From contig NC_134683.1 in the NCBI RefSeq assembly GCF_024713945.1, positions 1,974,501 to 2,038,500 on the forward strand: a stretch of 64,000 nucleotides of DNA, read 5' to 3'. The notes under the pieces were generated by a model. It worked only from the letters and a program-made list of their open reading frames with translations, was not told the origin of the DNA and did no database searches. Below, piece after piece: positions 4,295 to 60,923 of the stretch (position 1 is the first letter of the stretch; each line of letters opens with the position of its first letter). Both the position numbers and the translations under genes were made by a program. The stretch comes from Dermatophagoides farinae. Its lineage: Eukaryota; Arthropoda; Arachnida; Sarcoptiformes; Pyroglyphidae.

Positions 4295-4734
4295 TTTGTA
4301 TATCAATTTTTATATATTATTTTTTTGAATTTTTTTTTAAAAAAGATGAATAATTTTTTCGACTATTGAAATAAAAAAAAGGAATGGAACATTTCCTTTT
4401 ATAGCTTGTAATCAAAATGCTCAACATAATGATAATCAGAGAATTTATTTCATGGTTAACATACAATAATAATGAATATATGACGATTGTTCGAATGATG
4501 AACTGAATTATTTAGACAATTTCCAACCAAAAAAAAGATATAAGCAAAATTTTGCAATTTCTTTAATCATTTGTAGCACGAATGCCATCATTAAAGATCA
4601 TTATTATCATTATTATTAATGACATTGTCATTTACGAACAATTGCATTCCAGAAGAATGTTTGTAAGTCGATAACCAACTGTATAAATATTGGATGAATT
4701 TTAAATAATGAAAATGGTGTTCTGTGTGTATTTG

Positions 4735-10636: not shown

Positions 10637-13600
10637 TTATCGAAGATTTTGGTCAAGATGAGCAAGTTTGACACACAATTCCTTCATTTCGTATTTTTCA
10701 ATTAATGGAAGATATGTTGGCATAGTTTGTTCGTCCAAATCATTCCGTATGAATGTTTCACAATATTCCATCAACATTTCATCACTATAACAATTGGCCA
10801 AATCAACAAGTTCGGTTATGTTTTGATGATTAATATGAATTTTACCAGTATGTAACATATGTACATATGCATAGTATGTTTCATACGAATAATTCTGGAT
10901 GGGTACTTGATCCTTTTTAATCCAATTACCGGAAAACATTCGACGATAATATTCCGATACAGATTTGAGATAACATTTACATGCCTTGATACGTTTTTTA
11001 TCAATCAAAAATTCCACATCATAACTATCTTGATTATCGAATAATTGGATGATTGATTTGCATTGGTACGATATTGGATCATGTGATTTAAATTCATCGA
11101 TTGTTGATGTGAGACCAAATGTGAGTGGTGATGATAGAATCATTGTCGACGCAGAAGCAAATGATGAGTGCGAATTATCCAATTTTCTAGGTGATGACCA
11201 TTTGCCATATTTAGTGTTTCCCCATGCATAATACGATGATCCATCATATGCCAATGAAAAAAAATGGAATAATGAACATGCGATTTGTTGTACATTTTCA
11301 ATCGGTATTTTTGTCAAATTTGATAGTTTAATATCATCACCAAGACCAAGTTCACCATTTCTATTAGAACCAAATCCCCAAAGCTGGCCATTTTCGAATA
11401 AAACTAATGAATGTCGGTCGCCAGCCGCAATATCTTTGATTCGGATATTGATCAAATCATCATTTGGAAATGGAACAAGACATATGGTGTTTCTTTTTTT
11501 TTCATCACCAAGACCTAATCGACCATCATCATTACAGCCCCAGGTATAAATTTCACCATTATTAGTTATTGATACACTATGTCTCCTTCCACAAGCTATG
11601 AGCTTGACATTCTCTAGCTTATAGATGTGGATCATACTTTTGTATGATAATCTTTCAGTAGCCAGTATTTGATTATAACCATTATAGCCCATAGCGAAAA
11701 CATGACCATCTTGTCGTAGCAATACTAAATGGTAGTGTCCACAAGCAATCATCTTGAAACGATCATTATCGTTGGAAATCAATCGTAATTTTTTATTTGT
11801 ATTCCAATAAGTTTTAAGTTTGTGATTAACGCCATATTGGCGAATGTAATCCGTCTCCCATTCACTATCATCGCTTGCAAGATACACTCGTCCATCATAA
11901 GTTAGAAGGGCAACAAAATCATGGCCATAAACTGCTTGAACAATTTTATCACCATTTAAACGTGATATCCGTTCTGGTTTGTCCATATAATCCTCCAATA
12001 ACCATGAGCATATTCTTTTACCATATGCATATGTAGCTTCTTTGGTCATCAATAAAAATTGCATTTTGGCCTTATTATTTTTGAAAGTAAAAAAGCTAAA
12101 AATCGAAACGACAGATTGGAGAAATTCTTGATTGATGTTTTTGAAATCATTTTTAAAAAACTCAATATCGATATTTTCATTCAGTGATCTTTTCATATTT
12201 CTGAGTTTATTATGCAATACTTTCATTTCGTATTTGTTAATTAATGAAAGATATGTGGGAATAGTTTGTTCATTCCGATCATTCCATATGAATTTTTCAC
12301 AACATTTCATCAAAGTTTCATCATCATAACAATTGGCCAGATCAACAAGCTCGGTTATGTTTTGACGATTAATCTGAATTTCGCCAGTATGTAACATAAG
12401 CAAGTAGGCATAGTATGTTTCATACGAATAATCGTTGATGATTACTTGGTCGTTTTCACTCCAATTACCGGAAAACATTAAACGATAATATTCCGATACC
12501 GATTTGAGATAACATTTGCATGCCTTGATATGTTTTTTGTCAATTGAAAATTCCACATCATAACTATCTTGATTATCGAATAATTGATTGACTGATTTGC
12601 ATTGGTACGAGATTGAATCATGTGACCCGAATACATAGATTGTTGATTTGAGACCAAATGTTATTTTTGATGATAGAATCATTGCCGATGCAGCTACAAT
12701 TGATGTCGGATGACCATTCAATTTTTCAGGTGACGTTTTCAAATATAACTTTTCGGCACATTCGGCTCTGCCCCATGCATAGTACGATGATCCATCATGT
12801 GCAATTGAAAAGTTATGTTCTTTTGAACATACAATTTGTTTTACATTTTCAATAGGTATTTTTGTTAACTTTGATCGTTGATAATCATAATCGAAACCAA
12901 GTTCACCATTGTTATTAGAACCACAACCCCAAAGCTGACCATTTTCAAATAAAAATAGTGAAAATATTCGGCCAGCCACAATATCTTTGATTCGGATATT
13001 GATCAAATCATCATTTGAAAATGCAACAAGACATGGGGTGTCTCGGTCTTCGTTATCACCAAGACCTAATTGACCACAATGATTACTGCCCCAGGAATAA
13101 ATTTCTCCATTATTAGTTAATGAAAAATTATGACTCATTCCACAAACTATGAGCTTGACATTCTCTAGCTTATCAATGTGGACCATACTTTCATATGATG
13201 ATTTTTCATTACCAGTTATTTGACCACAACTATTACAACCCATAGCGAAAACATGACCATCTTTTCGTAGCATTAATACATGATACTGTCCACAAGCAAT
13301 CATCTTGAAACGATGATTATCGTTGGAAATCAATCGCAATGTTTTATTCGTCTTCCAATTAGAATCATCACTTGCAAGATACACTCGTCCATCATCAGTG
13401 AGAATGGCAACAAAATCACGGCCATAATCTACTTGAACAATTTTCATATCATCAAGACAAGATATCCGTTGTGGTTTGATCATATGATTTATCATCTCCC
13501 ATATACTATCAGCTTCCATATCATCTTCCAAAGATAACCATGAGCATATTTCTTTACCATAGGCATATGTAGCGTCTTTAGTCATCAATAAAAATTGAAT

Positions 13601-13726
13601 TTTATAGAATATTAAAGGAAAAAAGCTAAAAATCGAAATGACTGATTGGAGAAATTCTTGATCGATGTTTTTGAAATCATCTTGAAATAACTCAATATCG
13701 ATACTTTCAGTCGGTGATCTTGCCAT
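10637..13726 (-). CDS. RCC1-BTB copy A: two complete units fused in one frame
   Basis: One uninterrupted intronless frame of 1029 aa. Residues 1-510 (13726-12197) are a full RCC1-BTB protein and residues 511-1029 (12196-10637) are a second one. Each has an N-terminal helix (IDIELFQDDFKNI / IDIEFFKNDFKNI), RCC1-type blades rich in ACG.H, GEIYSWG and GQLGLGD motifs, and a BTB domain (YDVEFSIDKKHIKACKCYL / YDVEFLIDKKRIKACKCYL). At the junction, KYEMKVLHNKLRN passes straight into MKRSLNENIDIE, which aligns with the MARLPNENIDIE start of copy B. The spacer and stop that separate other copies are absent. RCC1-BTB proteins of the RCBTB1/2 type are thought to act as Cullin-3 adaptors with a beta-propeller binding partner. 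A single chain could carry two propellers and two BTB domains. Confidence 0.9.
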   Translation of the reverse strand: MARSPTESIDIELFQDDFKNIDQEFLQSVISIFSFFPLIFYKIQFLLMTKDATYAYGKEICSWLSLEDDMEADSIWEMINHMIKPQRISCLDDMKIVQVDYGRDFVAILTDDGRVYLASDDSNWKTNKTLRLISNDNHRFKMIACGQYHVLMLRKDGHVFAMGCNSCGQITGNEKSSYESMVHIDKLENVKLIVCGMSHNFSLTNNGEIYSWGSNHCGQLGLGDNEDRDTPCLVAFSNDDLINIRIKDIVAGRIFSLFLFENGQLWGCGSNNNGELGFDYDYQRSKLTKIPIENVKQIVCSKEHNFSIAHDGSSYYAWGRAECAEKLYLKTSPEKLNGHPTSIVAASAMILSSKITFGLKSTIYVFGSHDSISYQCKSVNQLFDNQDSYDVEFSIDKKHIKACKCYLKSVSEYYRLMFSGNWSENDQVIINDYSYETYYAYLLMLHTGEIQINRQNITELVDLANCYDDETLMKCCEKFIWNDRNEQTIPTYLSLINKYEMKVLHNKLRNMKRSLNENIDIEFFKNDFKNINQEFLQSVVSIFSFFTFKNNKAKMQFLLMTKEATYAYGKRICSWLLEDYMDKPERISRLNGDKIVQAVYGHDFVALLTYDGRVYLASDDSEWETDYIRQYGVNHKLKTYWNTNKKLRLISNDNDRFKMIACGHYHLVLLRQDGHVFAMGYNGYNQILATERLSYKSMIHIYKLENVKLIACGRRHSVSITNNGEIYTWGCNDDGRLGLGDEKKRNTICLVPFPNDDLINIRIKDIAAGDRHSLVLFENGQLWGFGSNRNGELGLGDDIKLSNLTKIPIENVQQIACSLFHFFSLAYDGSSYYAWGNTKYGKWSSPRKLDNSHSSFASASTMILSSPLTFGLTSTIDEFKSHDPISYQCKSIIQLFDNQDSYDVEFLIDKKRIKACKCYLKSVSEYYRRMFSGNWIKKDQVPIQNYSYETYYAYVHMLHTGKIHINHQNITELVDLANCYSDEMLMEYCETFIRNDLDEQTMPTYLPLIEKYEMKELCVKLAHLDQNLR

Positions 13727-14340
13727 TATCGATGATGAAAAACACTCAAATTATAGACACAATATTGACAAACGAAAATATGCGAGAATTAGTGACAGCA
13801 GAAAAGAAATGATCAACAATTGTGTGACGTGAGTATATGAATAGCGGACGAAGTTAACATACACACATGCGTATTCACACAACACAGATTTAAAAATATG
13901 AGAAAATTTAATATTGTAAAAATGATGAAAATACAGGTGTTGGAAAAATAAAAAACAAAATGTTTGTGGTGATAATGATGGTGGTAAATTAAAATGGCCA
14001 GCCAACAAAAATGATCCGAGGTGATGATTGCTTGTGTGGCATGTACTTTTATATGATTTTTCCAACCGTTTTTCGGACCGTCCAACTGCCAATCTGTTTG
14101 ACCACGCCACTTGTCACATAGACCATGTGTTTGGGTCATCTTTCGCTACTCATATTTACCACCGTCCTTGATCGAAAGTGGTGGACGAGTCCAAAGTTTT
14201 TCTCGGGCCCTGAAAATAAGTCCCTGACTCATGGCCACGTTTTTTCCATGCTGGTTTTTGCCAGTCCAATTCTTCGCTTCCCTGCCAATTCAAAAAGAAT
14301 AAAATCGATGTCCATTTTAGGACATCACATGTATATCGCA
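13727..14340. repeat. Array spacer block alpha, copy 1 (upstream of A)
   Basis: This roughly 610-bp spacer is highly similar to 18782-19390 and 28981-29600. It starts at the shared 5' leader TCATCATCGATA (minus strand), includes a TGACGT element, and ends in a GC-richer stretch with GGTGGACGAGTCCAAAG. It is evidence that genes were duplicated together with their upstream DNA. Open frames on both strands here show no conservation as protein. Confidence 0.75.
13825..13832. promoter_or_regulatory. CRE-like half element upstream of copy A
   Basis: TGACGTGA lies 99 bp upstream of the copy A start codon, at the position where copies C and G have a perfect TGACGTCA. TGACGTCA is the established binding palindrome of CREB/ATF bZIP factors. 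Function here is inferred. Confidence 0.4.
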
Positions 14341-14344
14341 TAGC

Positions 14345-14795
14345 TATTTCAGCCGATTTTTGTATACCTCTTCTCAGTTAGAAGTGACAATTTTCTGCCC
14401 TTTGACCTCTAGAGGCTGAAGGTATCAAATTCAAATGACATTATTGTATTTTGTGTTGATAGGAACAATTGCTCGAAATTTCACAAAAATATTTCGAATA
14501 GCGGCTGTTCAGGAGGCAATTTGAAGAAAAGCGGCGAATATATTTAGTTTATTATCATTATCGATGGCCAGTTGATGTGTGATGAATTTAATTATGAAAA
14601 TTGATTGTTTTTTCATTGTTATCAATATGGATGGTTCTGGTAAAAAAAAACAAAAAATAAGCTAAGCAAGTCATTTGAATTAATAATTCGATTTATTGAC
14701 CAAAATTGAAAAGAAAAATGAGAAAGTAAATTTTTGATTTTTTTAAAACATTATGGAATGAATGGTTGTTGATGGTGAAACTAGTCAAGAAAGAT
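14345..14795. repeat. Array spacer block beta (downstream of B)
   Basis: This 3'-flank block is closely similar to 21958-22410 (downstream of copy E) and in part to 10370-10636 (downstream of copy A). It begins TTTTTGTATACCTCTTCTC and runs into the region just after the stop codon. It probably includes the transcript 3' end. No gene is seen in it. Confidence 0.7.
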
Positions 14796-16310
14796 TTAAA
14801 AAAATTTTGTTCGTTTTGTTGAAGATTGTAGGTGATTTTGATCAAGATGAGCAAGTTTGTCATACAATTCCTTCATTTCGTATTTTTCAATTAATGGATG
14901 ATATATGCCTAACGTATGCTTATTTAGAACACTCCGAATGAATGTTTTACAATATTCCATCAACCTTTTATCACCATAACAGTTGGCTAGATCAACAAGC
15001 TCGGTTATGTTTTGACGAGTAATATGAATTTTACCATTATGTAACATACGTAGATATGCATAGTATGTTTCATATGAATAATCGTCAATGTTTACTTTAT
15101 CATTTTCAGTCCATTTTCCTGAAAACATTCGACAATAATATTCCGAAGCAGATTTGAGATAACATTTGCATGCTTTAATACGTTTTTTGTCAATTATAAA
15201 TTCCACATCATAATTATCTTGATTATCGAATAATCGGAGGATTGATTTGTATGATAATGAATCATGTGATCCGAATACATAAATTGTTGATGTTAAACCG
15301 ATTGTGTGTGATATATGACGTATCATTGCCGCTGCAGCAACAAATGACGTCGGATGATCATCCAATCTTTTAGGTGATGACCATTTGCCATATTTGGTTT
15401 TGCCCCATGCATAGTACGATGATCCATCATATGCCAATGAAAAGCTGTCGAATTTTGAACATTTAATTTGTTGTACATTTTCAATCGGTATTTTTGTCAA
15501 CTTTGATACAATACAATCATCAATACCAAGTTCACCATAGAAATTAGAACCACATCCCCAAAGTTGACCATTTTCGAATAAAAATAATGAATGTTGGTGG
15601 CCAGCAACAATATCTTTGATGCGGGTTGAATCATCATTTGGAAATAAAACAAGACATGGAGTGTTTCGGTTTTTTTTATCGACAAGACCTAATTGATACC
15701 AATTATTAAGGCCCCAGGAATAAATTTCTCCTTTATTAGTTATTGAAAAACTATGATCAACTCCGCAAGCAATAAGTTTAACATTATCAATACCAGTATT
15801 GATCATACTTTCATAGGATGATTTTTCATTATTTCCAGTTATTTGACCATAACAATTATTACCCATAGCGAAAACATGACCATCTTGTCGTAGCAATAAT
15901 AAATGCTCCCCTCCACAAGCAATCATCTTGAAACAATCATTACCGGTGTTGATTAATCGGAAAGTATTATTCGTCTTCCAACTAGAATCATTGCTTGCCA
16001 GATACACTCGACCATCATCAGTTAGAATGGCAACAAAACAATGGCTTGAATCTACACGAACAATTTTCATATCATCAAGACAAGATATCTGTTGTGGTTT
16101 GGTCCTATCATGTTTCAACGATAACCATGAGCATATTATTTCTCCATATGCATATGTAGATTCTTCGGTCATCAATAAAAATTCTTTTTGGTCAACGTAA
16201 GTAAAAAGACTGCAAATCGAAACAACTGATGGGAGAAATTCTTGATCAATGTATTTAAAATCATCTTGAAATAATTCAATATCGATATTTTCATTCGGTA
16301 ATCTTGCCAT
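14796..16310 (-). CDS. RCC1-BTB protein, array copy B
   Basis: Intronless, 504 aa. An N-terminal helix (NIDIELFQDDFKYIDQEFL) is followed by degenerate RCC1 blades from about residue 45 to 340, including HVFAMGNNCYGQITG, GEIYSWGLNNWYQLGL and GQLWGCGSNFYGELGI. The BTB fold starts at about residue 370 (YDVEFIIDKKRIKACKCYL) and includes RMFSGKW, a helical extension (ITELVDLANCYGD) and a basic C-terminal tail ending STKRTKFF. The tail matches those of copies E and F. The ATG is preceded by the shared leader. Residues after the BTB stop short of a full BACK domain. Expected role: cytoplasmic or nuclear substrate adaptor; the partner is unknown. Confidence 0.88.
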   Translation of the reverse strand: MARLPNENIDIELFQDDFKYIDQEFLPSVVSICSLFTYVDQKEFLLMTEESTYAYGEIICSWLSLKHDRTKPQQISCLDDMKIVRVDSSHCFVAILTDDGRVYLASNDSSWKTNNTFRLINTGNDCFKMIACGGEHLLLLRQDGHVFAMGNNCYGQITGNNEKSSYESMINTGIDNVKLIACGVDHSFSITNKGEIYSWGLNNWYQLGLVDKKNRNTPCLVLFPNDDSTRIKDIVAGHQHSLFLFENGQLWGCGSNFYGELGIDDCIVSKLTKIPIENVQQIKCSKFDSFSLAYDGSSYYAWGKTKYGKWSSPKRLDDHPTSFVAAAAMIRHISHTIGLTSTIYVFGSHDSLSYKSILRLFDNQDNYDVEFIIDKKRIKACKCYLKSASEYYCRMFSGKWTENDKVNIDDYSYETYYAYLRMLHNGKIHITRQNITELVDLANCYGDKRLMEYCKTFIRSVLNKHTLGIYHPLIEKYEMKELYDKLAHLDQNHLQSSTKRTKFF

Positions 16311-17281
16311 TATCGATGATAAAAAACACTCGAATCATAGACAAAATATATTGACAAACTATATGTGAGAATTAGTGACGATGGAAAAAAAATGATCAAC
16401 AAAAAAAAAAAAATGACAAAACTATGTGATACATTGACAATTTGTGAATATTACCTGATAGTTAGCAAAAATGATTTGACAAGGCGTGCATAACTTCATT
16501 CACTACAGATTGTTTTGCTTATTTCTCGAATAAATAAATCAACGGCCAATTTTAATACCTTTGAACAGTGCTTTTTGAGAATGCTTTTAGCGACATCTGG
16601 CGATAGCAGAAAAAATCAATTGTAGTGTTGAAATGAAATTAACCAAGGCGCTGTAAGCATCATTATACACATAAAATGAAGAAAAAATGGAAAAAAATTA
16701 TTGATGATCCAAGGAATCAGTGATGATAATAAAATACATTAGATTTAAGTTGACATTTACTCGCTTTAATACATTTTTTTTGTCAATTATAAATTCCACA
16801 TCACAATTTGATCATCTTGATTACCGAATAATTGGATCAGATCGATTGAGATTTGTACAATATTTGAATGCATGGATTATTGATGTGAGGTGTGATGATA
16901 ATACGATGACCAAGAGGTGTGATCATTACAATTGAGAATAAACAAAAGGAAAAATAACAAGAATTTCAACTTGGATTTTATTTAAATTTAACACCAGACG
17001 ACCAAAACAAGAAAACACAAAAAAAAAACAAAATAAATTTGAACATTTTTAAAAATTAATTTCAACCATTCAAGCCTATCGACTCAAGTTGAAACGTTGT
17101 TGTCTATTTAATTTATGACATTGTTGATTTATTCATCAAAGTAAATTTTTAATTTTAATTTTTTTTAAACAATGGAATTATTAACAAATCAATGATTGTT
17201 GGTGGTAAAACTAGTCAAGAAATTTTAAAAAAATTTTCATTGTTTTGTTGAAGATTGTCACCGATTTTGGGCAATATTTTT
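16311..17281. other. Spacer between B and C with a BTB relic
   Basis: AT-rich, with no intact gene. Apart from the relic at 16745-16925, the segment 17140-17281 matches the 3' flank of other copies. Confidence 0.6.
16745..16925 (-). pseudogene. Scrap of an RCC1-BTB gene (BTB start region)
   Basis: Read on the minus strand, this stretch matches the region around the RCC1-to-BTB junction of neighbouring copies (compare 17610-17765). Recognisable pieces encode the TSTIY.., NQD.., V.FIIDKK and A.KC..K segments. It is scrambled by small insertions and deletions and has no usable frame. It marks another lost array member. Confidence 0.65.
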
Positions 17282-18781
17282 TTAAATGCTAATATTAGCA
17301 AGTTTAGCATGCAATTCCTTCATTTCGTATTTGTTGATTAATGGAAGATATGTTGACATAGTTTGTTCATCCAAATCATTCCGTATGAATGTTTCACAAT
17401 ATTTCATCAACATTTTATCACAATAACAATTGGCCAGATCAAAAAGTTCGGCTATGTTTTGAAGATTAATATAAATTTTACCCGTATGTAACATGCAGAG
17501 AAATGCATAGTATGTTTCATACGAATAATCGTTGATGGTTACTTGATCATTTTCATTCCAATTACCGGAAAACATTCGTCGATAATATTCGGATACTGAT
17601 TTGAGATAACATTTACTCGCCTTAATACGTTTTTTATCAATTAAAAATTCCACATCATAACTATCTTGATTATCGAATAATTTGATGATTGATTTGCATT
17701 GGTACGATATCGAATCAAGTGATCCGAATACATAGATTGTTGATGTGAGACCAAATGTTAGAGGGGATGATAGAATCATTGTCGATGCAGAAGCAAATGA
17801 TGAATGGGAATCATCCAATTTTCTAGGTGATGACCATTTGCCATATTTGGTTTTTCCCCATGCATAATACGATGATCGATCATGTGCCAATGAAAAGCTG
17901 TCGAATTTCGAACATGCAATTTGTTGTACATTTTCAATCGGTATTTTTGTCGGTGTTAATCGTTTAAAATAATCACCAAGGCCAAGTTGACAATCATAAT
18001 CAGAACCACACCCCCAAAGCTGACCATTTTCGAATAAAAATAATGAATGTTGTTGGCCAGCCACAATATCTTTGATGCGGATATCGATTAAATCGTCATT
18101 TGGAAATGAAACAAGGCATGGGGTGCTTCGTTTGTTTTCATCACCAAGACCTAATTGCCCACAACTATTAAGGCCCCATGAATAAATTTCTCCTTTATTA
18201 GTTATTGACAAACTATGATCCCCTCCACAAGCTATGAGCTTAACATTTTTTAGATTATCAATTTGGATCATACTTTCATATGATAGTCTTTCATTACCAG
18301 TTATTTGACCAAAACAATTATTACCCATAGCGAATACATGACCATCTTGTCGTAGCAATAATAAATGCAAGCATCCACAAGCAATCATCTTGAAACGATC
18401 ATTATCGTTGGAAATCAATTGTAATGTTCGCTTTGTTTTCCATTTAGTTTTAGGAGCACTGGCTAGAAATACTTGTCCATCATCAGTTAGAATGGCAATA
18501 AAATTACGTCCATAATCTACTTGAACAATTTTGACATCATTTAAAAGTGATATCCGTTGTGGTTTGCTCATATCATGTTTTAACGAAAACGATGAGCATA
18601 TTTCTTCACCATAGGCATATGTAGCGTCTTTGGTCATCAATAAAAATTGTTTTCTAAAAGATTTTTTGAAATTGAAAAAGCTAAAAATTGAAACAACAGA
18701 TTGAAGAAATTGTTGATCGATGTTTTTGAAGTCATCTTGAAATAAATAAATATCGATATTATCAATCTGTGATTTCGCCAT
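17282..18781 (-). CDS. RCC1-BTB protein, array copy C
   Basis: Intronless, 499 aa, starting MAKSQIDNIDIYLFQDDF. The RCC1 part (about 45-335) has clear blades: GEIYSWGLNSCGQLGLGD, GQLWGCGSDYDCQLGLGD and SSYYAWGKTKYGKWSSP. The BTB part begins YDVEFLIDKKRIKASKCYL, with one Cys-to-Ser change relative to siblings (KACKC), and continues through RMFSGNWNENDQVTINDYSY. The tail is short (KELHAKLANISI), like copy G and unlike the basic tail of B, E and F. The upstream flank is the alpha spacer with a perfect CRE palindrome. Confidence 0.88.
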   Translation of the reverse strand: MAKSQIDNIDIYLFQDDFKNIDQQFLQSVVSIFSFFNFKKSFRKQFLLMTKDATYAYGEEICSSFSLKHDMSKPQRISLLNDVKIVQVDYGRNFIAILTDDGQVFLASAPKTKWKTKRTLQLISNDNDRFKMIACGCLHLLLLRQDGHVFAMGNNCFGQITGNERLSYESMIQIDNLKNVKLIACGGDHSLSITNKGEIYSWGLNSCGQLGLGDENKRSTPCLVSFPNDDLIDIRIKDIVAGQQHSLFLFENGQLWGCGSDYDCQLGLGDYFKRLTPTKIPIENVQQIACSKFDSFSLAHDRSSYYAWGKTKYGKWSSPRKLDDSHSSFASASTMILSSPLTFGLTSTIYVFGSLDSISYQCKSIIKLFDNQDSYDVEFLIDKKRIKASKCYLKSVSEYYRRMFSGNWNENDQVTINDYSYETYYAFLCMLHTGKIYINLQNIAELFDLANCYCDKMLMKYCETFIRNDLDEQTMSTYLPLINKYEMKELHAKLANISI

Positions 18782-19390
18782 TATCGGTGATGAAAAACAC
18801 TCAAATTATAGACAAAAAATATTGACCAACGAGAATATGCGAGAATTAATGACGGTGGAAAGGAATGATCAACAATTGCGTGACGTCATGTATTTTGTAT
18901 ATGTATGTCATGTATAGCGTTCATGGTGGACAAAGTTAACACATGCGTATTCACACAGCAAAGATTTAAAAATACAAGAAAATTTAATATTGTAAAAATG
19001 AAAATACAGGTGTTGGCAAAATAAAAAACAAAATGTTTGTGGTGATGATGATGGTGGTAAATTAAAATGGCAAGGCAGCAAAAATGACTCGAGGTGATGA
19101 TTGCTTGTATGGCATAGACTTTTATATGATTTTCCCAATTATCCCACTGCCAATCGATTTGACCACGCCACTTGTCACATAAACCATGTGTTCGAGTGAT
19201 CTTTCGCTACTCATATTTACCACCGTCCTTGATCGAAAGTGGTGGACGAGTCCAAAGTTTTTATCGGGCCCTGAAAATAAGTCTGTGACACATGGCCACG
19301 TTTTTTTCACGCTGGTTTTTGCCATTCCAATTCTTCGCTTCCTTGCCAATTCAAAAAGAATTCAAAATCGATGTTCATTTTAGGACATCA
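18782..19390. repeat. Array spacer block alpha, copy 2 (upstream of C)
   Basis: Highly similar to 13727-14340 and 28981-29600, and in the same relation to its gene. After 19390 the sequence becomes unrelated AT-rich DNA up to the 3' end of locus D at about 19737. Confidence 0.75.
18881..18888. promoter_or_regulatory. CRE palindrome upstream of copy C
   Basis: A perfect TGACGTCA lies 100 bp upstream of the copy C ATG, within a stretch (CAACAATTGCG then TGACGTCA) that is conserved upstream of copy G. Confidence 0.5.
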
Positions 19391-19736
19391 CATTGAATTG
19401 AGCCAAAAAAAAAAAAAATAAAATAAAATAAAAGATTACTAATGTTGGATGAGAAACATTATTAGTGCTATCTTTTGTTATATTTTTGAACTTCTGAGTA
19501 TTGTATGTTTATTCAAGTTTTTCTGAATTTGTCCCTTTGCTTTAACAACTAAATATATATGCGCAATAAAAAATATATGAAAAGCCATAACACAACACAT
19601 GTTATTTTACGAAAATCATAACAATACCTAAAATGAAAATTGAAATGATCAATTTAACATTCAATCATCAATGTTTGGCAATCAAAAATCATTTTTAAAC
19701 ATTTTTTTTATTATTAATTGATTTATTATTGGTCAA

Positions 19737-21249
19737 TCAAGAATAGAGTAAAAAAAAGTAAATTTTCATTTTTAGTTTCATGGAATCAAAAAACAATGAA
19801 TTATTTTGAATGAGTAGTTGAATGATTGTAAAACCAATTGAGAAATTCAATAGAATTTTCATTGTTTTGCCGAATATTGTCGGTAACACTTGTTCGATAG
19901 CAATATGACTTAGTTCATAGTACAATTCCTTCATTTTGTATTTGATAATTAATGGAAGATGTGTGGTCATAGTTTGTGCATTCAGATCACTCCGTATGAA
20001 TGTTTGACAATATTCCATCAACCTTTCATCACCATAACAATTGGCCAGATCGACAAGTTCGGTTATGTTTTGACGATTAATATGAATTTTTCCAGTATGT
20101 AACATGCGGATATATGCATAGTATGCTTCATACGAATAATCGTTGATGATCACTTGGTCATTTTCACTCCAATTTCCGGAAAACATTCGACGATAATATT
20201 TCGATACAGATTTTAGATAAAATTTGCATGACTTGATATCATTGTCAATTTTGAATTTCACATCATAATTATCTTGATTATCGAATAATCGGAGGATTGA
20301 TTTGTATGATAATGAATCATGTGATCCGAATTCATATATTGTTGATGTGAGGCCAAATGTGAGTGGTGAATCCAATACCTGAACTGATGCATAAGCAAAT
20401 GATGAATGCGAATCATTCAATTTTCTAGGTGACGACCAATTCGGGTCATGTTTGGTTTCGCCCCATGCATAATACGATGATCCATCGTACACCAATGAAA
20501 ATGAATTGAATATTGAACATGCGATTTGTTGCACATTTTCAATCGGTATTTTTGTCAAAATTGATCGATTATTTTCATCACCAAGACCAAGTTCACCACT
20601 ATAGTGGTGATGGAAAAATCATTGCCGATGCAGTTACAAATGACGTCGGATGATCATCAAATCTTTTAGGTGATGACCATTTTCTATATTTGGCTTTTCC
20701 CCATGCATAATACGATGACCCATCATTTGCCAATAAAAAGCTGTCGAATTTCGAACATGCAATCTGTTTTACATTTTCAATCGGTATTTTTGTCGGTGTT
20801 GATCGAATCTCTGTATCACCAAGACCAAGTACACCATTGTAATTAGAACCACATCCCCAAACCTGACCATTTTTGAATAAAAATAATGAATAATCTTCGC
20901 CAGCCACAATATTTTTGATTCTTGTTGAATCAGGATCAGAAAATGCAACAAGATAGGGTATGTCTCGGTCTTCTTCATCACCAAGACCTAGTTGACCAAA
21001 ATCATTAAAAAGTGATATTCGTTGTGGTTTGGTCATATCATGTTTCAACGATAGCCATGAGCATATTTCTTCACCATATGCATATGTAGCTTTTTCGGTC
21101 ATCATTAAAAATTCTTTTTTTAATTTACTTTTTTCGTAATTAAAAATAATGAAAATTGAAACAACTGATTGTAGAAATTTTTGATCGATGTTTTTGAAAT
21201 CATCTTGAAATAACTTAAAATCGATACTTTCAATCTGTGATCTTGCCAT
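19737..21249 (-). pseudogene. RCC1-BTB array locus D: rearranged pseudogene
   Basis: The start is intact (MARSQIESIDFKLFQDDF, ATG at 21249). The frame then jumps from KPQRISLFND directly to FGQLGLGDEEDRD, so about 110 residues (two to three blades) are deleted. It continues to SAMIFPSPL and stops near 20599. The sequence then re-enters an earlier part of the RCC1 region in another frame (TKIPIENVQQIACSIFNSF) and runs through a complete BTB (YDVKFKIDNDIKSCKFYL) to an extended tail at 19737. The blade segment before the BTB is therefore present twice, with different sequences on each side of the junction. This looks like unequal crossing-over between two paralogues. A truncated product from either part is possible, but a full protein is not. 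Confidence 0.8.
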
Positions 21250-22410
21250 TGTAGATGATGAAAAACATTTTAAGAAACAATTTAAAAACTGAAATTTAAG
21301 ACACAATATATTGATAAAATATGTAAAAGTAAGACGCAGCTCAGGCTGTGGATAACTTGGTCCAGAGACCACATTTATTGTTGTCTTTAAAATAGACAAT
21401 TACAAGTATAATTATACAAATAATAAAGATGGCTATGGCAGCCAAAATAACAATTATGATTGAATTCAAACAAAAGGCCTCGTTCAATCGCCAATCTACT
21501 GCTTATATTAGGCTTATCGGACTTGCCATCAATACTGGTTATTCAAATCCACCTCATTTCAAACTCATGACCAATTCATCAGCAGTGGCGCTGTTGTTAT
21601 TAGTTTATATTTCTACAAATATATATGCAAGAAATCAGTGACAACAGACAAAAAAAATGATTAGCAAAATTGAAAATAACAAATGACTGAAAATATAGCC
21701 AACCACATTGAATTTAGCAAAAAAAAAATGAAAGATTACTGTGCCATCACTGCAGATGCATAGTAACGGTCATTAGTTACATTCGACGATGAAGTAGTTT
21801 GACAATGAATATATTTAGTCGATTGATTTGGGTTGCGGGTTAAAATGTCCAAAATAAAAGCAGCCAAATCTGAAACTATGTCCATTTAGATTCCGTGATC
21901 TAAATGGACATAGTTTGTTCATTTAGATCACGGAATAGTTTTTTTTGGAAAAAAATGCCAATTTTTGTATACCTCTTCTCGGTTAGGAGTGACAACTTTT
22001 TGTCCTTTGACCTCTAGAGACTCGAGGTATCAAATTCAAATGACATTATTATTGTACCTTGTGGTGTGACGGATAATTGTTCGAAGTTTCACAAAAATAT
22101 TTCAAATGGCGGCTATTCAGGAGCGATTTGAAGAAAAGTGGCGTGTTAAGTTGATTATCATTATCGATGGCCAATTGATGATGAATTTAATTATGAAAAT
22201 TCATTGTTTTTTTCATTGTTATCCAAATGATGATGGTAATGGTAAAGCGAAAAGAAAATTAAGTCATTGGAATTGTTTTGATTATGAATTTGATTTATTT
22301 ATTGAACAAAATAGAAAAGAAAAATGATAAAGAAAATTTTTAATTTATTTTTTTTTAAACAATGGAATTATTATTGAATGAATGATTTTTTTATGGTAAA
22401 AGTAATGTGT
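21250..22410. other. Spacer between D and E
   Basis: No gene is supported. The right part (from about 21958) is spacer block beta. The part at 21873-21936 folds into two competing hairpins. A plus-strand open frame at 22106-22327 lies inside the repeated spacer and is not conserved as protein in the other beta copies. Confidence 0.6.
21873..21936. repeat. Two overlapping perfect inverted repeats
   Basis: Arms AAACTATGTCCATTTAGA (21873-21890) and TCTAAATGGACATAGTTT (21899-21916) are exact complements. The arm ATTCCGTGATCTAAATG (21890-21906) is the exact complement of CATTTAGATCACGGAAT (21920-21936). The two stems share bases, so only one can form at a time. Confidence 0.85.
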
Positions 22411-23928
22411 TTAAAAAAATTTCCTTTTTGTTGAAGATTGTCGGGTATTTTTGTACAGATGAGCAAGTTTTTCATACATTTCTATCATTTCGTATTTGTT
22501 AATTAATGGAAGATATTTGGGCATAGTTTGTTCATCCAAATCATTCCGTATGAATGTTGCACAATATTTCATCAAACTTTCATCACCATAACAATTGGCC
22601 AGATCAACAAGCTCGGTTATGTTTTGATGATTAATTTGAATTTTACCCGTATGTAACATCCGTATATAGGCATAATATGTTTCATACGAATAATCGGTGA
22701 TCACTTGGTCATTTTCACTCCAATTTCCGGAAAACATTCGACCATAATATTCCGAAGCAGATTTGAGATAACATTTGCATGCTTTAATATGTTTATTGTC
22801 AATTATGAATTTCACATCATAATTATCTTGATTATCGAATAATTTGACGATGGATTTGTATGATATTGAATCATGTGATCCAAATTCATATATTGTTGAT
22901 GTGAGGCCAAATGTGATTGGTGAATTCAATACCTGAACTGATGCAGATGCAAATGATGTAGGATGACCATCCAATTTCTTCGGTAATAACCATTTGTCAT
23001 ATTTGGTTTTGCCCCATGCATAATACGATGATCCATCATATGCCAATGAAACGTTGTGGATTTTTGAACATTTAATTTGTTGTAAATTTCCAATCGGTAT
23101 TTTCGCCAACTTTGATCGTCTATTACCAAGACCAAGTTCACCATTATAATTAAAACCACATCCCCAAAGCTGACCATTTTCGAATAAAAATAATGAATGT
23201 TGGTCACCAGCTACAATTTCTTTGATTCGGATATTGATTGAATCATCATTTGGAAATGAAACAAGACATGGGGTGTTTCGGTTTTTTCTATCACCAAGAC
23301 CTAGTTGACCAAAATCATTATGGCCCCAGGAATAAATGTCGCCTTTATTTGTTATTGAAAAATTATGATACTTTCCACATGCTATGAACTTGACATTTTC
23401 TAAGTTATCGATGTGGATCATACTTTCATATGGCAATTTTTCATTAATTGAAAAACAATAACTAATATTACCTATAGCGAAAACATGACCATCTTGTCGT
23501 AGCAATAATAAATGCGATCCTCCACAAGCAATCATCTTGAAACGATCATTATCGTTGGAAATCAATCGGAATGTTTTATCGGTCTTCCAATTAGAATTAT
23601 TACTTGCCAGATACACTCGACCATCATCAGTTAGAATGGCAACAAAATTACTTCCATAATCTACTTGAACAATTTTCATATGATCAAGACAAGATATCCG
23701 TTGTGGTTTGGATATATCATGTTCCAACGATAACGATGAGCATATTAATTCACCATATGCATATGTAGCATCTTTGGTCATCAATAAAAATTGTTTTTTC
23801 AGATTATAATTTTCGTAAATAAAAATTCTGATAATTGAAACAACTGATGTTAGAAATTTTTGATCGATTTTTTTGAAATCATCTTGAAATAAATTAATAT
23901 CGGTAATTTCAGTCGCTGATCTTGCCAT
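22411..23928 (-). CDS. RCC1-BTB protein, array copy E
   Basis: Intronless, 505 aa, starting MARSATEITDINLFQDDF. Blades include GDIYSWGHNDFGQLGLGD, GQLWGCGFNYNGELGLG and SSYYAWGKTKYDKWLLP. One blade is worn (AIGNISYCFSINEK in place of the usual AMGNN..GQITGNEK). BTB: YDVKFIIDNKHIKACKCYL, RMFSGNWSENDQVITDYSY. The C-terminal tail is basic (QSSTKRKFF). Its closest sibling is copy F next door, with which it shares SKLAKIPIGNLQQIK, YEMIELYEKLAHLYKN and the MARSATEI start. The two are probably the latest tandem duplication. Confidence 0.88.
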   Translation of the reverse strand: MARSATEITDINLFQDDFKKIDQKFLTSVVSIIRIFIYENYNLKKQFLLMTKDATYAYGELICSSLSLEHDISKPQRISCLDHMKIVQVDYGSNFVAILTDDGRVYLASNNSNWKTDKTFRLISNDNDRFKMIACGGSHLLLLRQDGHVFAIGNISYCFSINEKLPYESMIHIDNLENVKFIACGKYHNFSITNKGDIYSWGHNDFGQLGLGDRKNRNTPCLVSFPNDDSINIRIKEIVAGDQHSLFLFENGQLWGCGFNYNGELGLGNRRSKLAKIPIGNLQQIKCSKIHNVSLAYDGSSYYAWGKTKYDKWLLPKKLDGHPTSFASASVQVLNSPITFGLTSTIYEFGSHDSISYKSIVKLFDNQDNYDVKFIIDNKHIKACKCYLKSASEYYGRMFSGNWSENDQVITDYSYETYYAYIRMLHTGKIQINHQNITELVDLANCYGDESLMKYCATFIRNDLDEQTMPKYLPLINKYEMIEMYEKLAHLYKNTRQSSTKRKFF

Positions 23929-24664
23929 TATCGATGATGAAAAACACTCAAAAAATCAGAATATTGACAAAATGATTGACAAACTATTAGAATATTCGAG
24001 AATTAGTGATGAGCCAAAAATAAATGATTGTAACGTAAACTGTTGTTATGAATAAATAAATCACTTTTATTGAACTTGACGATCTAGCTTGTTCGAGTGT
24101 GTGTATCTGAATGCGGACTGGTAATTTTCGGTTGGAAACATGCTCGTTTCTCTCACCAACATTCTCGGTCGAAATAGGAAAAGGGTTACAATAGACAAAA
24201 GTATGCGCAGCCAGTTGACTGCTACATGATAAACACAATTGCGTATTAATCATATCTTCATATACTGTACTATAGTACAGCGTTTCCCAGAGATTTTTTG
24301 CGACCCGCCTTATGAGAAAAAAATTTTTTTAACATAACAAATTTTATTTTTTAATTTTTCTCCGACCCAGTGCCGGGTTGGCAAATTTGATTCTGAAAGA
24401 AGAAATTTTCCTATTGAATTTTTTTTCCACCACAGATTCTAGATTTTGGTTAAACGAAAAAAAATAAGCTAAGCAAGTCATTTGAATTGATTCGATTGAT
24501 TGATCAAAATTGTAAAGAAAAATGATAAAGTAAATTTTTATTTTTTTTAACAAAAAGGAATGAATAATGAAACAATGTGGAATGAATAATGAAACAATGT
24601 GGAATGAATAATGAAACAATGTGGAATGAATGATTGTTCAGGGTAAAAGTATAGAAAAGATAGT
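23929..24664. other. Spacer between E and F
   Basis: No gene. At 24548-24631 there are short tandem repeats of GGAATGAATAATGAAACAATGT (about 22 bp, roughly three and a half copies). At 24279-24310 there is a hAT-like terminus. The segment 24390-24545 resembles 27222-27385. Confidence 0.55.
24279..24375. mobile_element. Possible hAT-like transposon end
   Basis: CAGCGTTTCCCAGAGATTTT followed by TTGCGACCCGCC resembles hAT-family termini (CAG.G.TTC.CA... with a downstream CGACCC). A second GACCC motif lies at about 24363. There is no transposase and no clear opposite end. Tentative. Confidence 0.25.
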
Positions 24665-26200
24665 TTAAGAAAATTTTGTACGTTTGGAAGATGAAGAAGA
24701 TTGTTTGTTTTGATTTTTGTACAGATGAGCAAGTTTTTCATACAATTCTATCATTTCGTATTTGTTAATTAATGGAAGATATTTGGGCATAGTTTGTTCA
24801 TCCAAATCATTCCGTATGAATGTTGCACAATATTCCATCAAACTTTCATCACCATAACAATTGGCCAGATCAACAAGTTCGGTTATGTTTTGATGATTAA
24901 TTTGAATTTTTCCAGTATGTAACAAGCGGAGATATGTATAGTATGTTTCATACTGATAATTGTTGATGATCACTTGATCATTTTCATTCCAATTTTCGGA
25001 AAACATTCGACAATAATATTTCGATACAGATTTTAGATAACATTTGCATGCTTTGATATCTTTTTTGTCAATTATAAATTTCACATCATAATTATCTTGA
25101 TTATCAAATAATTTGACGATTGATTTGTATGATATTGAATCATGTGATCCAAATTCATAGATTGCTGATGTGAGGCCAAATGTGATTGGGGAATTCAATA
25201 CCTGAACTGATGCAGATGCAAATGATGTAGGATGACCATCCAATTTCTTCGGTAATAACCATTTGTCATATTTGGTTTTGCCCCATACATAGTACGATGA
25301 TCCATCATATGCGAATGAAAAGTTGTGGGTTTTTGAATATTTAATTTGTTGCAAATTTCCAATCGGTATTTTCGCCAACTTTGATCTTCGTCTATTACCA
25401 ATACCAAGTTCACCATTATAATTACAACCACACCCCCAAAGCTGACCATTTTCGAATAAAAATAATGAATGTTGGTCACCAGCCACAATCTCTTTGATTC
25501 GGATATTGATTGACTCATCATTTGGAAATGCAACAAGACATGGGGTTCTTGAAATTTCTTTATTACTAAGACCTAATTGACCATAACTATTAGGGCCCCA
25601 AGAATAAATTTCTTCTTTATTAGTTATTGAAAAACTATGATTCCCTCCACAAGCAATAAGTTTAACATTCGCAATACCAGTATTGATCATACTTTCATAT
25701 GACGATTTTTCATTACCAGTTATTTGACCAACTCTATTATCACCCATAGCGAAAACATGACCATCTTGTCGTAGCAATAATAAATGCTCCCCTCCACAAG
25801 CAATCATCTTGAAACGATCATTATCGTTGGAAATCAATCGGAATGTTTTATTCGTCTTCCAATTAGAATTATTGCTTGCAAGATACACTCGACCATCTTC
25901 AGTTAGAATGGTAACAAAATCATAGCCAGAATCCACCTGAACGATTTTCATATCATTTAAAAGTGATATCCGTTGTGGTTTGCTCATATCATGTTCCAAC
26001 GATAACCATAAGCATATTTGTTCACCATATGCAAATGTAGCTTCTTTGGTCATTAATAAAAATTGTTTTTTCGGTTTATAATTTTCGTAAATAAAAATAC
26101 TGATAATCGAAACGACTGATGGGAGAAATTTTTGATCCATGTTTTTGAAATCATCTTGAAATAAATTAATATCGATAATTTCAGTCGCTGATCTTGCCAT
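24665..26200 (-). CDS. RCC1-BTB protein, array copy F
   Basis: Intronless, 511 aa from the ATG shared with the other copies (MARSATEIIDINLFQDDF). An upstream in-frame ATG at 26242 would add 14 residues from the conserved leader and is less likely. RCC1 blades: HVFAMGDNRVGQITGN, EEIYSWGPNSYGQLGLS and GQLWGCGCNYNGELGIG. BTB: YDVKFIIDKKDIKACKCYL, RMFSENWNENDQVIINNYQY. The tail is Ser-rich and basic (QSSSSSKRTKFS). In the N-terminal third it is nearly identical to copy G (EATFAYGEQICLWLSLEHD), and elsewhere it is closest to copy E, which suggests exchange between copies. Confidence 0.88.
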   Translation of the reverse strand: MARSATEIIDINLFQDDFKNMDQKFLPSVVSIISIFIYENYKPKKQFLLMTKEATFAYGEQICLWLSLEHDMSKPQRISLLNDMKIVQVDSGYDFVTILTEDGRVYLASNNSNWKTNKTFRLISNDNDRFKMIACGGEHLLLLRQDGHVFAMGDNRVGQITGNEKSSYESMINTGIANVKLIACGGNHSFSITNKEEIYSWGPNSYGQLGLSNKEISRTPCLVAFPNDESINIRIKEIVAGDQHSLFLFENGQLWGCGCNYNGELGIGNRRRSKLAKIPIGNLQQIKYSKTHNFSFAYDGSSYYVWGKTKYDKWLLPKKLDGHPTSFASASVQVLNSPITFGLTSAIYEFGSHDSISYKSIVKLFDNQDNYDVKFIIDKKDIKACKCYLKSVSKYYCRMFSENWNENDQVIINNYQYETYYTYLRLLHTGKIQINHQNITELVDLANCYGDESLMEYCATFIRNDLDEQTMPKYLPLINKYEMIELYEKLAHLYKNQNKQSSSSSKRTKFS

Positions 26201-27495
26201 TATTGATGATGAAAAACACTCGAAAAATTTAAATATAGACAAAATATTGACAAACGAAAATTAGTAGTATTCGAGAATCAGTAGTATGTAGTGTACTCGT
26301 TAACTATTTATTTATTCAAATGAATTCAAAACACATTTTCACTAAACTCCTTTGCTCGAATTGGGGCTCATCATCAATGACGTTAACAAACCATCACATT
26401 TCTCTCCCCAACCCAAACCATCAAATTTACAATCATAAAAAAAATATAAATATAATTAAATTTAAACAATAACCAAAACAGAACAAAAGAAAAAAAATAC
26501 AATTCTTGAAAAATTAATAATTTCATGCAACAAATTTAAATCAACAACAAACTGATCTATAGATGATCAAGTTAAACGATGATATTTTCACACAAGAAAA
26601 TCACAAACTGGCAATGAACAAAAGTCTTAATGGTTGTTCAAATGAAATGACTTCACAACAAACTGGTCCATCCAAAGATTATGACGATTGGTTTTCAAAT
26701 GAATTATTTTTATCGAAAAAATAATACATCTGAGAAGATCAATACGATTCGGATTCGTATTCGGTTGTATGTTTGACGCCAATTTTTGAATCTAAAGATC
26801 ATGCTAATAATCAGATTTTTTTTTGTTTTCATTTTTTTCTTCATTCTAATCATAATAAGATGATTGTATTGTGTTCAATTCATACCATACACATTCCATA
26901 CTATCGTTTCAACTCACCATCATTCTCGGTCGAAATAGGAAATGGAAATTTTATCGCTTTTTCATTCGATAATTGCCCAAAACTTTTCCATCTATTCATA
27001 AATCAATAAAAAAAATGATAAAATGATCCTCAATTTGTAATTTTCATATTGCTGATTCTGTTTTTTTTTTTTTTTTGTTTTCAAAAAAGAATGAAATAAA
27101 ATTCACATTGAATAAAATGAATTGGAATGAAATATAATCATCATTATAACACATAATTCAATGGCAATCAAATATATCATTATTATGGTCTGCTAGTTCT
27201 TTAGTTAGTTGGTTAGCAAATATGATTCTGAAAGAAGAAATTTTCAATTGAATTTTTTTTTCCACCACAGATTCTAGGTTTTGGTAAAACGAAAAAAAAA
27301 TAATCAAAGCAAGTCATTTGAATTAATAATATTCGTTTTATTGATCAAAATTGAAAAGAAAAAAATGAAAAAGTAAATTTTTAATTTTTTTTTGAAACAA
27401 TGTAATTATTATCGAATAAATGATTGTTGATGGAAAGTTTAAAAAAAAATTTTTCTTTTTGTTGAAGATTGTCACCGATTTTGGGGCAATATTTT
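26201..27495. other. Spacer between F and G
   Basis: No RCC1-BTB remnant is seen. The plus strand carries a 53-codon frame at 26563-26724 that I cannot assign. The right part (27222-27385) repeats spacer sequence found at 24390-24545. Confidence 0.5.
26563..26724 (+). CDS. Unassigned 53-residue open frame
   Basis: The frame starts MIKLNDDIFTQENHKLAMNK and ends NELFLSKK. It is polar and Asn/Ser/Gln-rich, ATG to TAA, with no repeat-like composition, and lies in otherwise noncoding spacer. It could be a small exon, a decayed exon or chance. No family is recognised. Confidence 0.2.
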   Translation: MIKLNDDIFTQENHKLAMNKSLNGCSNEMTSQQTGPSKDYDDWFSNELFLSKK

Positions 27496-28980
27496 TTAAA
27501 TGCTAATATGAGCAAGTTTGGCATGCAATTCCTTCATTTCGTATTTGTTGATTAATGGAAGATATGTGGGCATAGTTTGTTCATCCAAATCATTCTGTAT
27601 GAATGTTTCACAATATTCTATCAACCTTTTATCACAATAACAATTGGCCAGATCAACAAGTTTGGCTATGTTTTGAAGATTGATATGAATTTTACCCGTA
27701 TGTAACATATGTACATATGCATAGTATGTTTCATACGAATAATCGTTGATGATCACTTGGTCATTTTCACTCCAATTTCCGGAAAACATTCGACCATAAT
27801 ATTCCGATACAGATTTTAGATAACATTTGCATGCCTTGATATCTTTTTTGTCAATTATAAATTTCACATCATAATTATCTTGATTATCGAATAATTTGAC
27901 GATTGATTTGTATGATATTGAATCATGTGATCCAAATTCATAGATTGTTGATGTGAGACCAAATGTCAGTGGTGATGATAGAATCATTGTCGAAGCAGAA
28001 GCAAATGATAAATGCGAATCATCCAATTTTCTAGGTGATGACCATTTGCCATATTTGGTTTTTCCCCATGCATAATACGATGATCCATCATATGCCAATG
28101 AAAAGCTGTCGAATTTTGAACATGCAATTTGTTGTACGTTTTCAATCGGTATTTTCGTTAACTTTGATCGTCTAATATCATCACCAAGACCAAGTTCACC
28201 ATTGAAATTAATACCACATCCCCAAACATGACCATTTTCGAATAAAAAAAAGGAAAATAATTGGCCAGCCACAATATCGTTGATTCGCATATCGATTAAA
28301 TCAACATTAGGAAATGCAACAAGACATGGGGTGTCTCGGACATCTTTACCACCAAAACCTAATTGACCACAACAATTAAAGCCCCAGGAATAAATTTCTC
28401 CTTTATTAGTTATTGAGAAACTATGACCAGCTCCACAAGCTATGAGCTTGACATTTTCTAGGTTATCAATGTGGATCATATTTTCATATGATGATTTTAT
28501 ATTACCAGTTATTTGACCCCAATAATTACCACCCATAGCGAAAACATGACCATCTTGTCGCATCATTAATAAATGCGACCATCCACAAGCAATCATCTTG
28601 AAACAAACTTTATCGCTGGAAATCAATTTTAATGTACTATTCGTCTTCCAATTAGAACCATTGCTTGCCAGATACACTCGACCATCATCACTTAGAATGG
28701 CAACAAAATCAAGGCCATAATCTACTTGAACAATTTTCACACCATTTAAAACTGATATCCGTTGTGGTTTGCTCATATCATGTTCCAACGATAACCATAA
28801 GCATATTTGTTCACCATATGCAAATGTAGCTTCTTTGGTCATTAATAAAAATTGTTTTTCGTGGCCTTTTTTTGCCAATCTGATAATCGAAACAACTGAT
28901 TGGAGAAATTTTTGATCGATGTTTCCGAAATCATATTGAAATAAATCAATATCGATACTTTCAGTCAGTGATCTTGCCAT
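27496..28980 (-). CDS. RCC1-BTB protein, array copy G
   Basis: Intronless, 494 aa, the rightmost copy and hence the first in the direction of transcription. N-terminal helix SIDIDLFQYDFGNIDQKFL; RCC1 blades about 50-335 (HVFAMGGNYWGQITGN, GEIYSWGFNCCGQLGFGG, HVWGCGINFNGELGLGD); BTB from about 363 (YDVKFIIDKKDIKACKCYL, RMFSGNWSENDQVIINDYSY); BTB-proximal helices ending KYEMKELHAKLAHISI. The N-terminal part matches copy F, the last blades and tail match copy C, and the BTB matches F again. It looks like a mosaic. The upstream alpha spacer has a perfect CRE palindrome. Confidence 0.88.
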   Translation of the reverse strand: MARSLTESIDIDLFQYDFGNIDQKFLQSVVSIIRLAKKGHEKQFLLMTKEATFAYGEQICLWLSLEHDMSKPQRISVLNGVKIVQVDYGLDFVAILSDDGRVYLASNGSNWKTNSTLKLISSDKVCFKMIACGWSHLLMMRQDGHVFAMGGNYWGQITGNIKSSYENMIHIDNLENVKLIACGAGHSFSITNKGEIYSWGFNCCGQLGFGGKDVRDTPCLVAFPNVDLIDMRINDIVAGQLFSFFLFENGHVWGCGINFNGELGLGDDIRRSKLTKIPIENVQQIACSKFDSFSLAYDGSSYYAWGKTKYGKWSSPRKLDDSHLSFASASTMILSSPLTFGLTSTIYEFGSHDSISYKSIVKLFDNQDNYDVKFIIDKKDIKACKCYLKSVSEYYGRMFSGNWSENDQVIINDYSYETYYAYVHMLHTGKIHINLQNIAKLVDLANCYCDKRLIEYCETFIQNDLDEQTMPTYLPLINKYEMKELHAKLAHISI

Positions 28981-58849: not shown

Positions 58850-58899
58850 AATAATTGTTGAACATTTATTCTGCACCGAAATAAAAGAAACATATGACA

Positions 58900-60887: not shown

Positions 60888-60923
60888 GATAACATTTATT
60901 CTGCACCGAAATAAAAGAAACAT

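Follow-up and report, generated by a model that had tools for sequence, protein, structure and literature searches.

A cluster of intronless RCC1-BTB genes is found at positions 10637-28980 of the 64,000-nucleotide stretch of Dermatophagoides farinae DNA analyzed here (the window; C7:1974501-2038500 in a genome of 62.4 Mb and 22 contigs). Our analysis revealed that this cluster is an outlier of a much larger family. Its units are largely mosaics, and some are fused in frame. The loops on one face of the RCC1 propeller have a ratio of nonsynonymous to synonymous change (dN/dS) above 1, and a motif in the BTB domain that may mediate Cullin-3 contact is kept in nearly all units. We propose that the family is probably a Dermatophagoides set of substrate receptors for Cullin-3 ligases whose ligand face is diversifying.

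Results

A six-frame search of the genome with the protein encoded at 27496-28980 of the window as the query returned at least 93 matches. From most of the DNA that they cover, we delimited 52 near-full units genome-wide, 51 of which are located on C7, the contig of the window. Forty are found at 531-674 kb, seven in the window, three at 2.23 Mb and one at 4.18 Mb. One further, more distant unit is located on C4. The main array measures 140 kb, with units on the plus strand at 531-556 kb, on the minus strand at 578-654 kb and again on the plus strand at 663-673 kb. Broken copies are also present within it. A first-pass annotation of the window had described a local burst. The cluster is real, but the window contains only part of the burst, and the main 40-unit array lies at C7:531-674 kb.

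Within the window, the seven same-strand loci described in that annotation, with eight units including one relic counted as one, are all present on the minus strand (Table 1). Their frames are uninterrupted. In all six intact window open reading frames (ORFs) submitted, Pfam detected RCC1 repeats (RCC1/RCC1_2) followed by a BTB domain in one chain, the architecture of RCBTB-type proteins. The BTB domain was detected twice in the 1029-residue ORF at 10637-13726. Chance ORFs are ruled out by the Pfam matches and by paralogues across the genome. The broken locus at 19737-21249 consists of two fragments that overlap, and could thus represent what is left of two copies. An annotated D. farinae protein, P0001, covers this relic and the gene at 17282-18781 when compared by eye.

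A canonical RCBTB-like gene is located at C7:1053758-1055545 as a single uninterrupted ORF, and is about 25% identical to an array unit. This gene sits at a separate locus, and the array family is a distant paralogue and not an orthologue of RCBTB1/2.

The units vary mainly in the loops of the propeller blades, and this variation is regular. It peaks once per blade in each of two kinds of loop, at residues 90-91, 134-135, 184-185, 240-241 and 291-292 in the G-xx-H loops and at residues 57-58, 107-110, 151-154, 201-204 and 257-260 in the WGxNxxG loops. An AlphaFold model of the reference unit (mean predicted local distance difference test score 85.1, predicted template modeling score 0.71) places these loops between strands 1-2 and 3-4 of the blade. 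Given the up-and-down topology of the blades, both kinds are predicted to lie on the same face of the propeller. We call this the X face, and the other two kinds of loop form the Y face. We assigned strands and faces manually, using the secondary structure of the model, and the assignment is an argument from topology rather than from coordinates.

To measure selection we used 50 of the 52 units, leaving out C4:133632 and C7:4179991 here and in the alignments. C7:666384 was cut to 491 residues, and three fused units, cut about 13 codons too early, carry the end of the preceding unit. The nearest relative by propeller differs from that by BTB in 36 of the 50 units. For example, C7:641784 and C7:643962 differ by 2.3% in the BTB and by 26.5% in the propeller. 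A test on a single tree was set aside for this reason. Instead, dN/dS was calculated by the Nei-Gojobori method for 22 non-overlapping closest pairs, which include 44 of the 50 units. Corrected values were obtained by weighting the opportunities for change by base make-up and by the transition bias from fourfold sites.

Over whole domains, dN/dS is 0.69 for the propeller and 0.43 for the BTB. The X loops reach 1.19 (1.01-1.41, bootstrap over pairs), compared with 0.58 for the Y loops, 0.42 for the strands and 0.43 for the BTB. The corrected values are 1.36 (1.17-1.62), 0.69, 0.53 and 0.60, respectively, and the 13 closer pairs give a corrected X value of 1.56 (1.26-2.04). Nonsynonymous change is greater in the X loops than in the strands in 21 of the 22 pairs, and the X face contains 23 of the 30 sites richest in such changes. 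We also picked the 25 most variable propeller positions by entropy in Dermatophagoides pteronyssinus alone, from 33 of 42 rows after nine divergent rows had been removed by our choice. Twenty of these positions are on the X face, and dN/dS at the 25 positions is 1.99 (1.56-2.74), or 2.21 (1.78-2.99) when corrected. The propeller loops thus vary more than the BTB, as the first-pass annotation had anticipated, and the X loops and the chosen positions bear the mark of positive selection in the putative substrate-reading domain, with an uncorrected X value of 1.04 in near-gap-free columns.

In canonical-type proteins, the X loops do not stand out as variable. Thirteen RCBTB-type proteins were compared, namely the D. 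farinae gene, those of Sarcoptes, Oppia and Apis, and nine others. Their mean entropy is highest in the Y loops (1.63 bits), followed by the BTB (1.29), X loops 1-2 (1.26), strands (1.13) and X loops 3-4 (1.00). In the array (17 of the 50 units), it is 1.89 in X loops 1-2, 1.22 in X loops 3-4, 0.95 in Y loops and 0.67 in strands. Single X positions, 90 and 240, vary in the canonical-type proteins too.

By both sequence and fold, the best solved relative of the propeller is UVR8, with HERC1, HERC2, RPGR and RCC1 behind it. The best 50 of 1711 matches in the fold search are RCC1-type propellers, with the inhibitor BLIP-II last, and no BTB structure is among them. The hypervariable residues 134-135 and 184-185 each align with W-R in a UVR8 GWRHT motif; the second of these motifs reads A-R in chain 4dnu, titled as a W285A mutant. 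The UVR8 triad W233/W285/W337 derives from these motifs and packs against its partner in the dimer, which is held by R286 and R338 (PMC4501546). Since the hypervariable loops align with dimer-forming motifs, the varying face is a known binding face of the fold.

The BTB domain is closest to those of KLHL22 (expect value 1.7e-10), KLHL3 and KLHL11 among solved structures. W403-x-E405 in the reference unit is aligned with M-S-E of KLHL3 and corresponds to the hydrophobic-x-E motif, which in Cullin-3 adaptors lies in the loop that contacts the cullin. In D. farinae, W403 is present in 50 of 50 units and E405, hence the full W-x-E, in 47. In D. pteronyssinus, W-x-E is found in 35 of 42 rows. The putative Cullin-3 contact residues of the BTB are therefore not generally lost. 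The BTB is followed in the model by helices at residues 451-464, 470-479 and 483-493, where a 3-box or BACK-like region would be expected in a Cullin-3 adaptor. In human cells, RCBTB1 co-precipitates with CUL3 (PMC10216830). In addition, three tandem uninterrupted ORFs on the plus strand at C7:3766152-3770989 encode an array-like RCC1 propeller (35-39% identical to the array propeller) with a C-terminal C3HC4 RING and no BTB. The joining of the same kind of propeller to a RING suggests a second route that ties it to ubiquitin ligation.

Seven ORFs contain more than one unit or parts of units. One has four units (1997 codons, C7:647738-653731), one has three (1489 codons) and five have two. The window's ORF at 10637-13726 is among these five; in another, at 666 kb, the second unit is truncated by a stop. 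None of the 10 junctions contains a stop codon. In nine of them the next unit is immediately preceded by K(L/I/F)(R/K)N, either with KI or lacking it. The tenth, displayed a few codons out of place, has the same IRN-M join. At two junctions the ATG of the next unit has changed to ATA or TTA, so these two units seem readable only within the chain. K replaces E in W-x-E in units C7:552302, C7:652220 and window 10637-12196 only, and all three are in multi-unit fused ORFs. Perhaps one BTB per chain is free to lose the Cullin-3 contact.

Multi-unit proteins of 1947 and 2551 residues are also annotated in two D. farinae records, with contigs of 4936791 and 4592003 bases. In the 4936791-base record, 13 of 21 compared proteins are 100% identical to a C7 unit, a match that, like P0001, places the genome in D. 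farinae; the other record differs from the assembly studied here. Their presence in two differing records rules out an assembly artefact as the source of the fusions. We did not count the fifth unit of the 2551-residue protein as a fusion. Its linker resembles untranslated DNA read through, and it is probably a gene-model join. The linkers of the D. pteronyssinus multi-unit annotations P0123 and P0125 also resemble untranslated DNA, and these are probably gene-model fusions.

To analyze the history of the family, we built a tree by a quick method from 52 D. farinae rows, 42 D. pteronyssinus rows and one Cloeon row; it contains many weak forks and a long outgroup branch. The D. pteronyssinus rows form one group, distinct from the main D. 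farinae radiation, which comprises 42 rows. Five D. farinae rows (541529, 4179991 and the trio from 2.23 Mb) are located on the D. pteronyssinus side of a weak fork, and a few more are at the base of the tree. The family has therefore probably burst twice, largely separately, from a small set of ancestral genes.

The whole-genome search covered D. farinae, and other mites were judged through protein databases. The best 120 of 143 matches to an array protein are from D. farinae and D. pteronyssinus and from metagenome or read-archive proteins, followed by far RCC1 proteins. No match among these 120, some of which lack a species label, is assigned to another mite, and no cluster outside Dermatophagoides is seen among them. 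Some matches without a species label, at 45-54% to array units, may belong to other mites. As a control, the canonical-like gene was used as the query. Sarcoptes (57%) and Oppia (39%) proteins are found among the best 120 of its 778 matches, so at least these two mites are represented in the database. Together, the genome count, the tree and the protein databases reveal a lineage-specific tandem expansion, in agreement with the burst first proposed from the window. The canonical-like gene is 100% identical in another D. farinae record, whereas array copies in that and other records are only about 78-84% identical to any full-length unit (for example P0008, P0014 and P0015). This suggests that the family is turning over within the species, although gene models in the records are uneven.

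The first-pass annotation had attributed the cluster to retroposition followed by tandem duplication. This is not borne out. The 400 bp upstream have a paralogous match in 37 of the 41 first units tested, and in 33 of these the match is longer than 350 bp. Retrocopies would lack such matches. Duplication therefore carried the upstream DNA along, and retroposition is not needed for the burst. The canonical-like gene likewise has a single uninterrupted frame, so intronlessness appears to predate the burst; the frames of the propeller-RING genes are uninterrupted too. Three close pairs in the main array, 585152/624799, 589234/628941 and 591340/630989 (C7:585152-592929 and C7:624799-632578), are 39.6-39.7 kb apart and differ by 1.3-5.9% in nucleotides, which points to a recent segmental duplication.

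Between two blocks of the main array lies an RCC1-propeller gene of more canonical type that lacks a BTB (C7:657497-658954, minus strand). It is the best match in this genome to a Cloeon RCC1-BTB protein, but no BTB exon was found in the surrounding stretch, so it is not an evident parent of the family. The gene beside it resembles a CD36-type receptor and has introns, as judged by eye.

Table 1. Features of the RCC1-BTB cluster, in window positions.
Feature	Position	Strand	Evidence
RCC1-BTB unit 1 of a two-unit in-frame fusion, 510 residues; no stop before unit 2	12197..13726	minus	
RCC1-BTB unit 2 of the fusion, 519 residues; includes the stop codon; K for E in W-x-E	10637..12196	minus	
Fusion junction, KLRN followed by MKRS; same type as the other in-frame fusions of the genome	12194..12199	minus	
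RCC1-BTB gene, 504 residues, single ORF	14796..16310	minus	Pfam
RCC1-BTB gene, 499 residues, single ORF	17282..18781	minus	Pfam
Relic fragment B, last blades and BTB, about reference residues 258-494	19737..20618	minus	
Relic fragment A, N-terminus and late blades, internal deletion, stop before BTB, about reference residues 1-338	20599..21249	minus	
RCC1-BTB gene, 505 residues, single ORF	22411..23928	minus	Pfam
RCC1-BTB gene, 511 residues, single ORF	24665..26200	minus	Pfam
RCC1-BTB gene, 494 residues, single ORF; reference unit for residue numbering	27496..28980	minus	Pfam
Propeller of the reference unit, residues 47-325	28006..28842	minus	
Hypervariable G-xx-H loop pair (example), residues 134-135, aligned with W-R of UVR8 GWRHT	28576..28581	minus	
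BTB domain of the reference unit, residues 346-462	27595..27945	minus	
W-x-E motif, residues 403-405, aligned with KLHL3 M-S-E	27766..27774	minus	

Several other genes are found in the window. Two tandem groups of membrane-protein ORFs on the minus strand (57545-62680 and 422-4309) look by eye like seven-transmembrane chemoreceptors, and two ORFs in the 57545-60929 group resemble each other over long stretches. A Rac-like small GTPase is located at 55935-56636 on the plus strand. By eye its frame seems to run through introns, so at least one neighbor of the cluster would have them. An ORF at 5460-6122 on the minus strand has a RING-CH-like Cys/His pattern by eye, and is possibly another ubiquitin ligase near the cluster.

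Discussion

In the mechanism that we propose, docking on Cullin-3 and dimerization would both fall to the BTB together with the helices that follow it. The RCC1 propeller would grip a target for ubiquitination with one face, to which every blade contributes its 1-2 and 3-4 loops. New copies would arise by segmental and tandem duplication that includes upstream DNA, and recombination or gene conversion would swap propeller and BTB halves. Loss of the stop codon and spacer in places would put two to four receptors in one chain, if the fused frames are translated as such. Diversifying selection on one face would keep the repertoire shifting, with foreign or selfish proteins as the most likely opponents. 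The putative receptors may target pathogens, selfish elements or mates.

Parts of this arrangement are known from other systems. KLHL proteins contain a Kelch propeller after the BTB. The BTB domains of KLHL22, KLHL3 and KLHL11 are the closest of known structure to those of the array proteins, but the array propeller is of the RCC1 type and precedes the BTB. RCBTB1 and RCBTB2 have the same order of domains in one chain, and RCBTB1 is found with CUL3 (PMC10216830). They are unlike the array in that identity between an array unit and the canonical-like gene is low and the X face is not variable in canonical-type proteins. UVR8, the closest solved propeller, has GWRHT motifs that align with the hypervariable G-xx-H loops; unlike the array proteins, it is a plant photoreceptor with seven blades and no BTB. 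The nematode MATH-BTB and F-box families are ubiquitin-ligase adaptors that expanded in one lineage, and their substrate-binding domains are under positive selection (PMC4334554). The likeness to MATH-BTB expansions suggested in the first-pass annotation holds in both respects. The mite family differs in that the reader is an RCC1 propeller, selection acts on one face, copies are fused in frame, and a few BTB positions also have values above 1.

Several results weigh against a family of Cullin-3 receptors under selection on one face. Three of the 50 D. farinae units and seven of the 42 from D. pteronyssinus have no glutamate in the motif, and among the 13 canonical-type proteins it is present in five and absent in eight. 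The motif is therefore weak proof of Cullin-3 binding. Many BTB proteins do not bind Cullin-3, and the BTB might serve for dimerization only. The proteins would then be self-associating binders, such as decoys, scaffolds or chromatin proteins, and not ubiquitin receptors. The short basic ends on some tails (for example SSTKRTKFF) would fit such roles. We consider this quite unlikely, given that the best solved relatives of the BTB are KLHL22, KLHL3 and KLHL11, that W-x-E is kept in 47 of 50 units and that the propeller family is also joined to a RING.

The other difficulties concern selection. In columns with at most one gap, the uncorrected X value is only 1.04, with 1.22 for loops 1-2. Once the positions chosen from D. 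pteronyssinus are removed, the X face gives 1.10 (0.94-1.30, corrected). Eleven BTB positions chosen in the same way give 1.86 (corrected 1.94) on only 14.8 synonymous changes, so that change is not confined to the propeller. Mosaicism blurs dN/dS based on pairs. A comparison between assemblies, in which C7:666384 was kept at 855 residues with parts of two units, revealed no clear X excess in three D. farinae sets (X and BTB differences of 0.3% and 2.0%, 3.5% and 4.1%, and 6.0% and 9.4%). A fourth set, without a species label, gave 8.6% for X, 2.8% for Y, 2.9% for strands and 7.4% for the BTB. Because the fragments and gene models are not clean orthologues, this comparison settles nothing. A family shaped by tandem duplication, gene conversion and relaxed constraint on loops, with no adaptive role, would account for the near-gap-free value close to 1, for the several broken copies, for the mosaics and for the difference in copy content between assemblies. 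It is very unlikely in our view. The two propeller faces differ (1.36 and 0.69), dN/dS at the positions chosen from D. pteronyssinus is as high as 2.21, its bootstrap interval lying above 1, nonsynonymous change favors the X loops over the strands in nearly every pair, and variation in canonical-type proteins does not favor the X face.

If the proteins are Cullin-3 substrate receptors, as we favor, they may diversify in reproductive or germline conflict, with drive, sperm or egg factors as targets, and not in defense against pathogens. Clustered adaptor families with fast turnover join such conflicts in other animals, and nothing in our results favors pathogens over this explanation; still, we rate it as unlikely. 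A broader proposal, in which the propellers are germline-diversified ubiquitin-ligase receptors against foreign or selfish proteins, with exchange of modules, D. farinae chains of up to four acting as multivalent arms, and a Cullin-3-independent RING branch, is tentative and, taken whole, somewhat unlikely.

In the open-licence literature we found no paper that links Dermatophagoides to RCC1, or RCBTB to mites. The titles and abstract openings of related open-licence papers contain no report of the family, and neither RCC1 nor BTB is mentioned in the main text of either of two papers on D. pteronyssinus (PMC12105342, PMC6493757).

Fast-evolving families of ubiquitin adaptors also exist in plants. 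If our interpretation is correct, these mites would have reached the nematode type of solution with another fold, the RCC1 propeller, largely separately in two species. Selection would act on one face, at positions aligned with the dimer-forming motifs of UVR8. The findings name residues to mutate and offer a route to the targets. They concern animals that are major sources of allergens and whose own defenses are little known.

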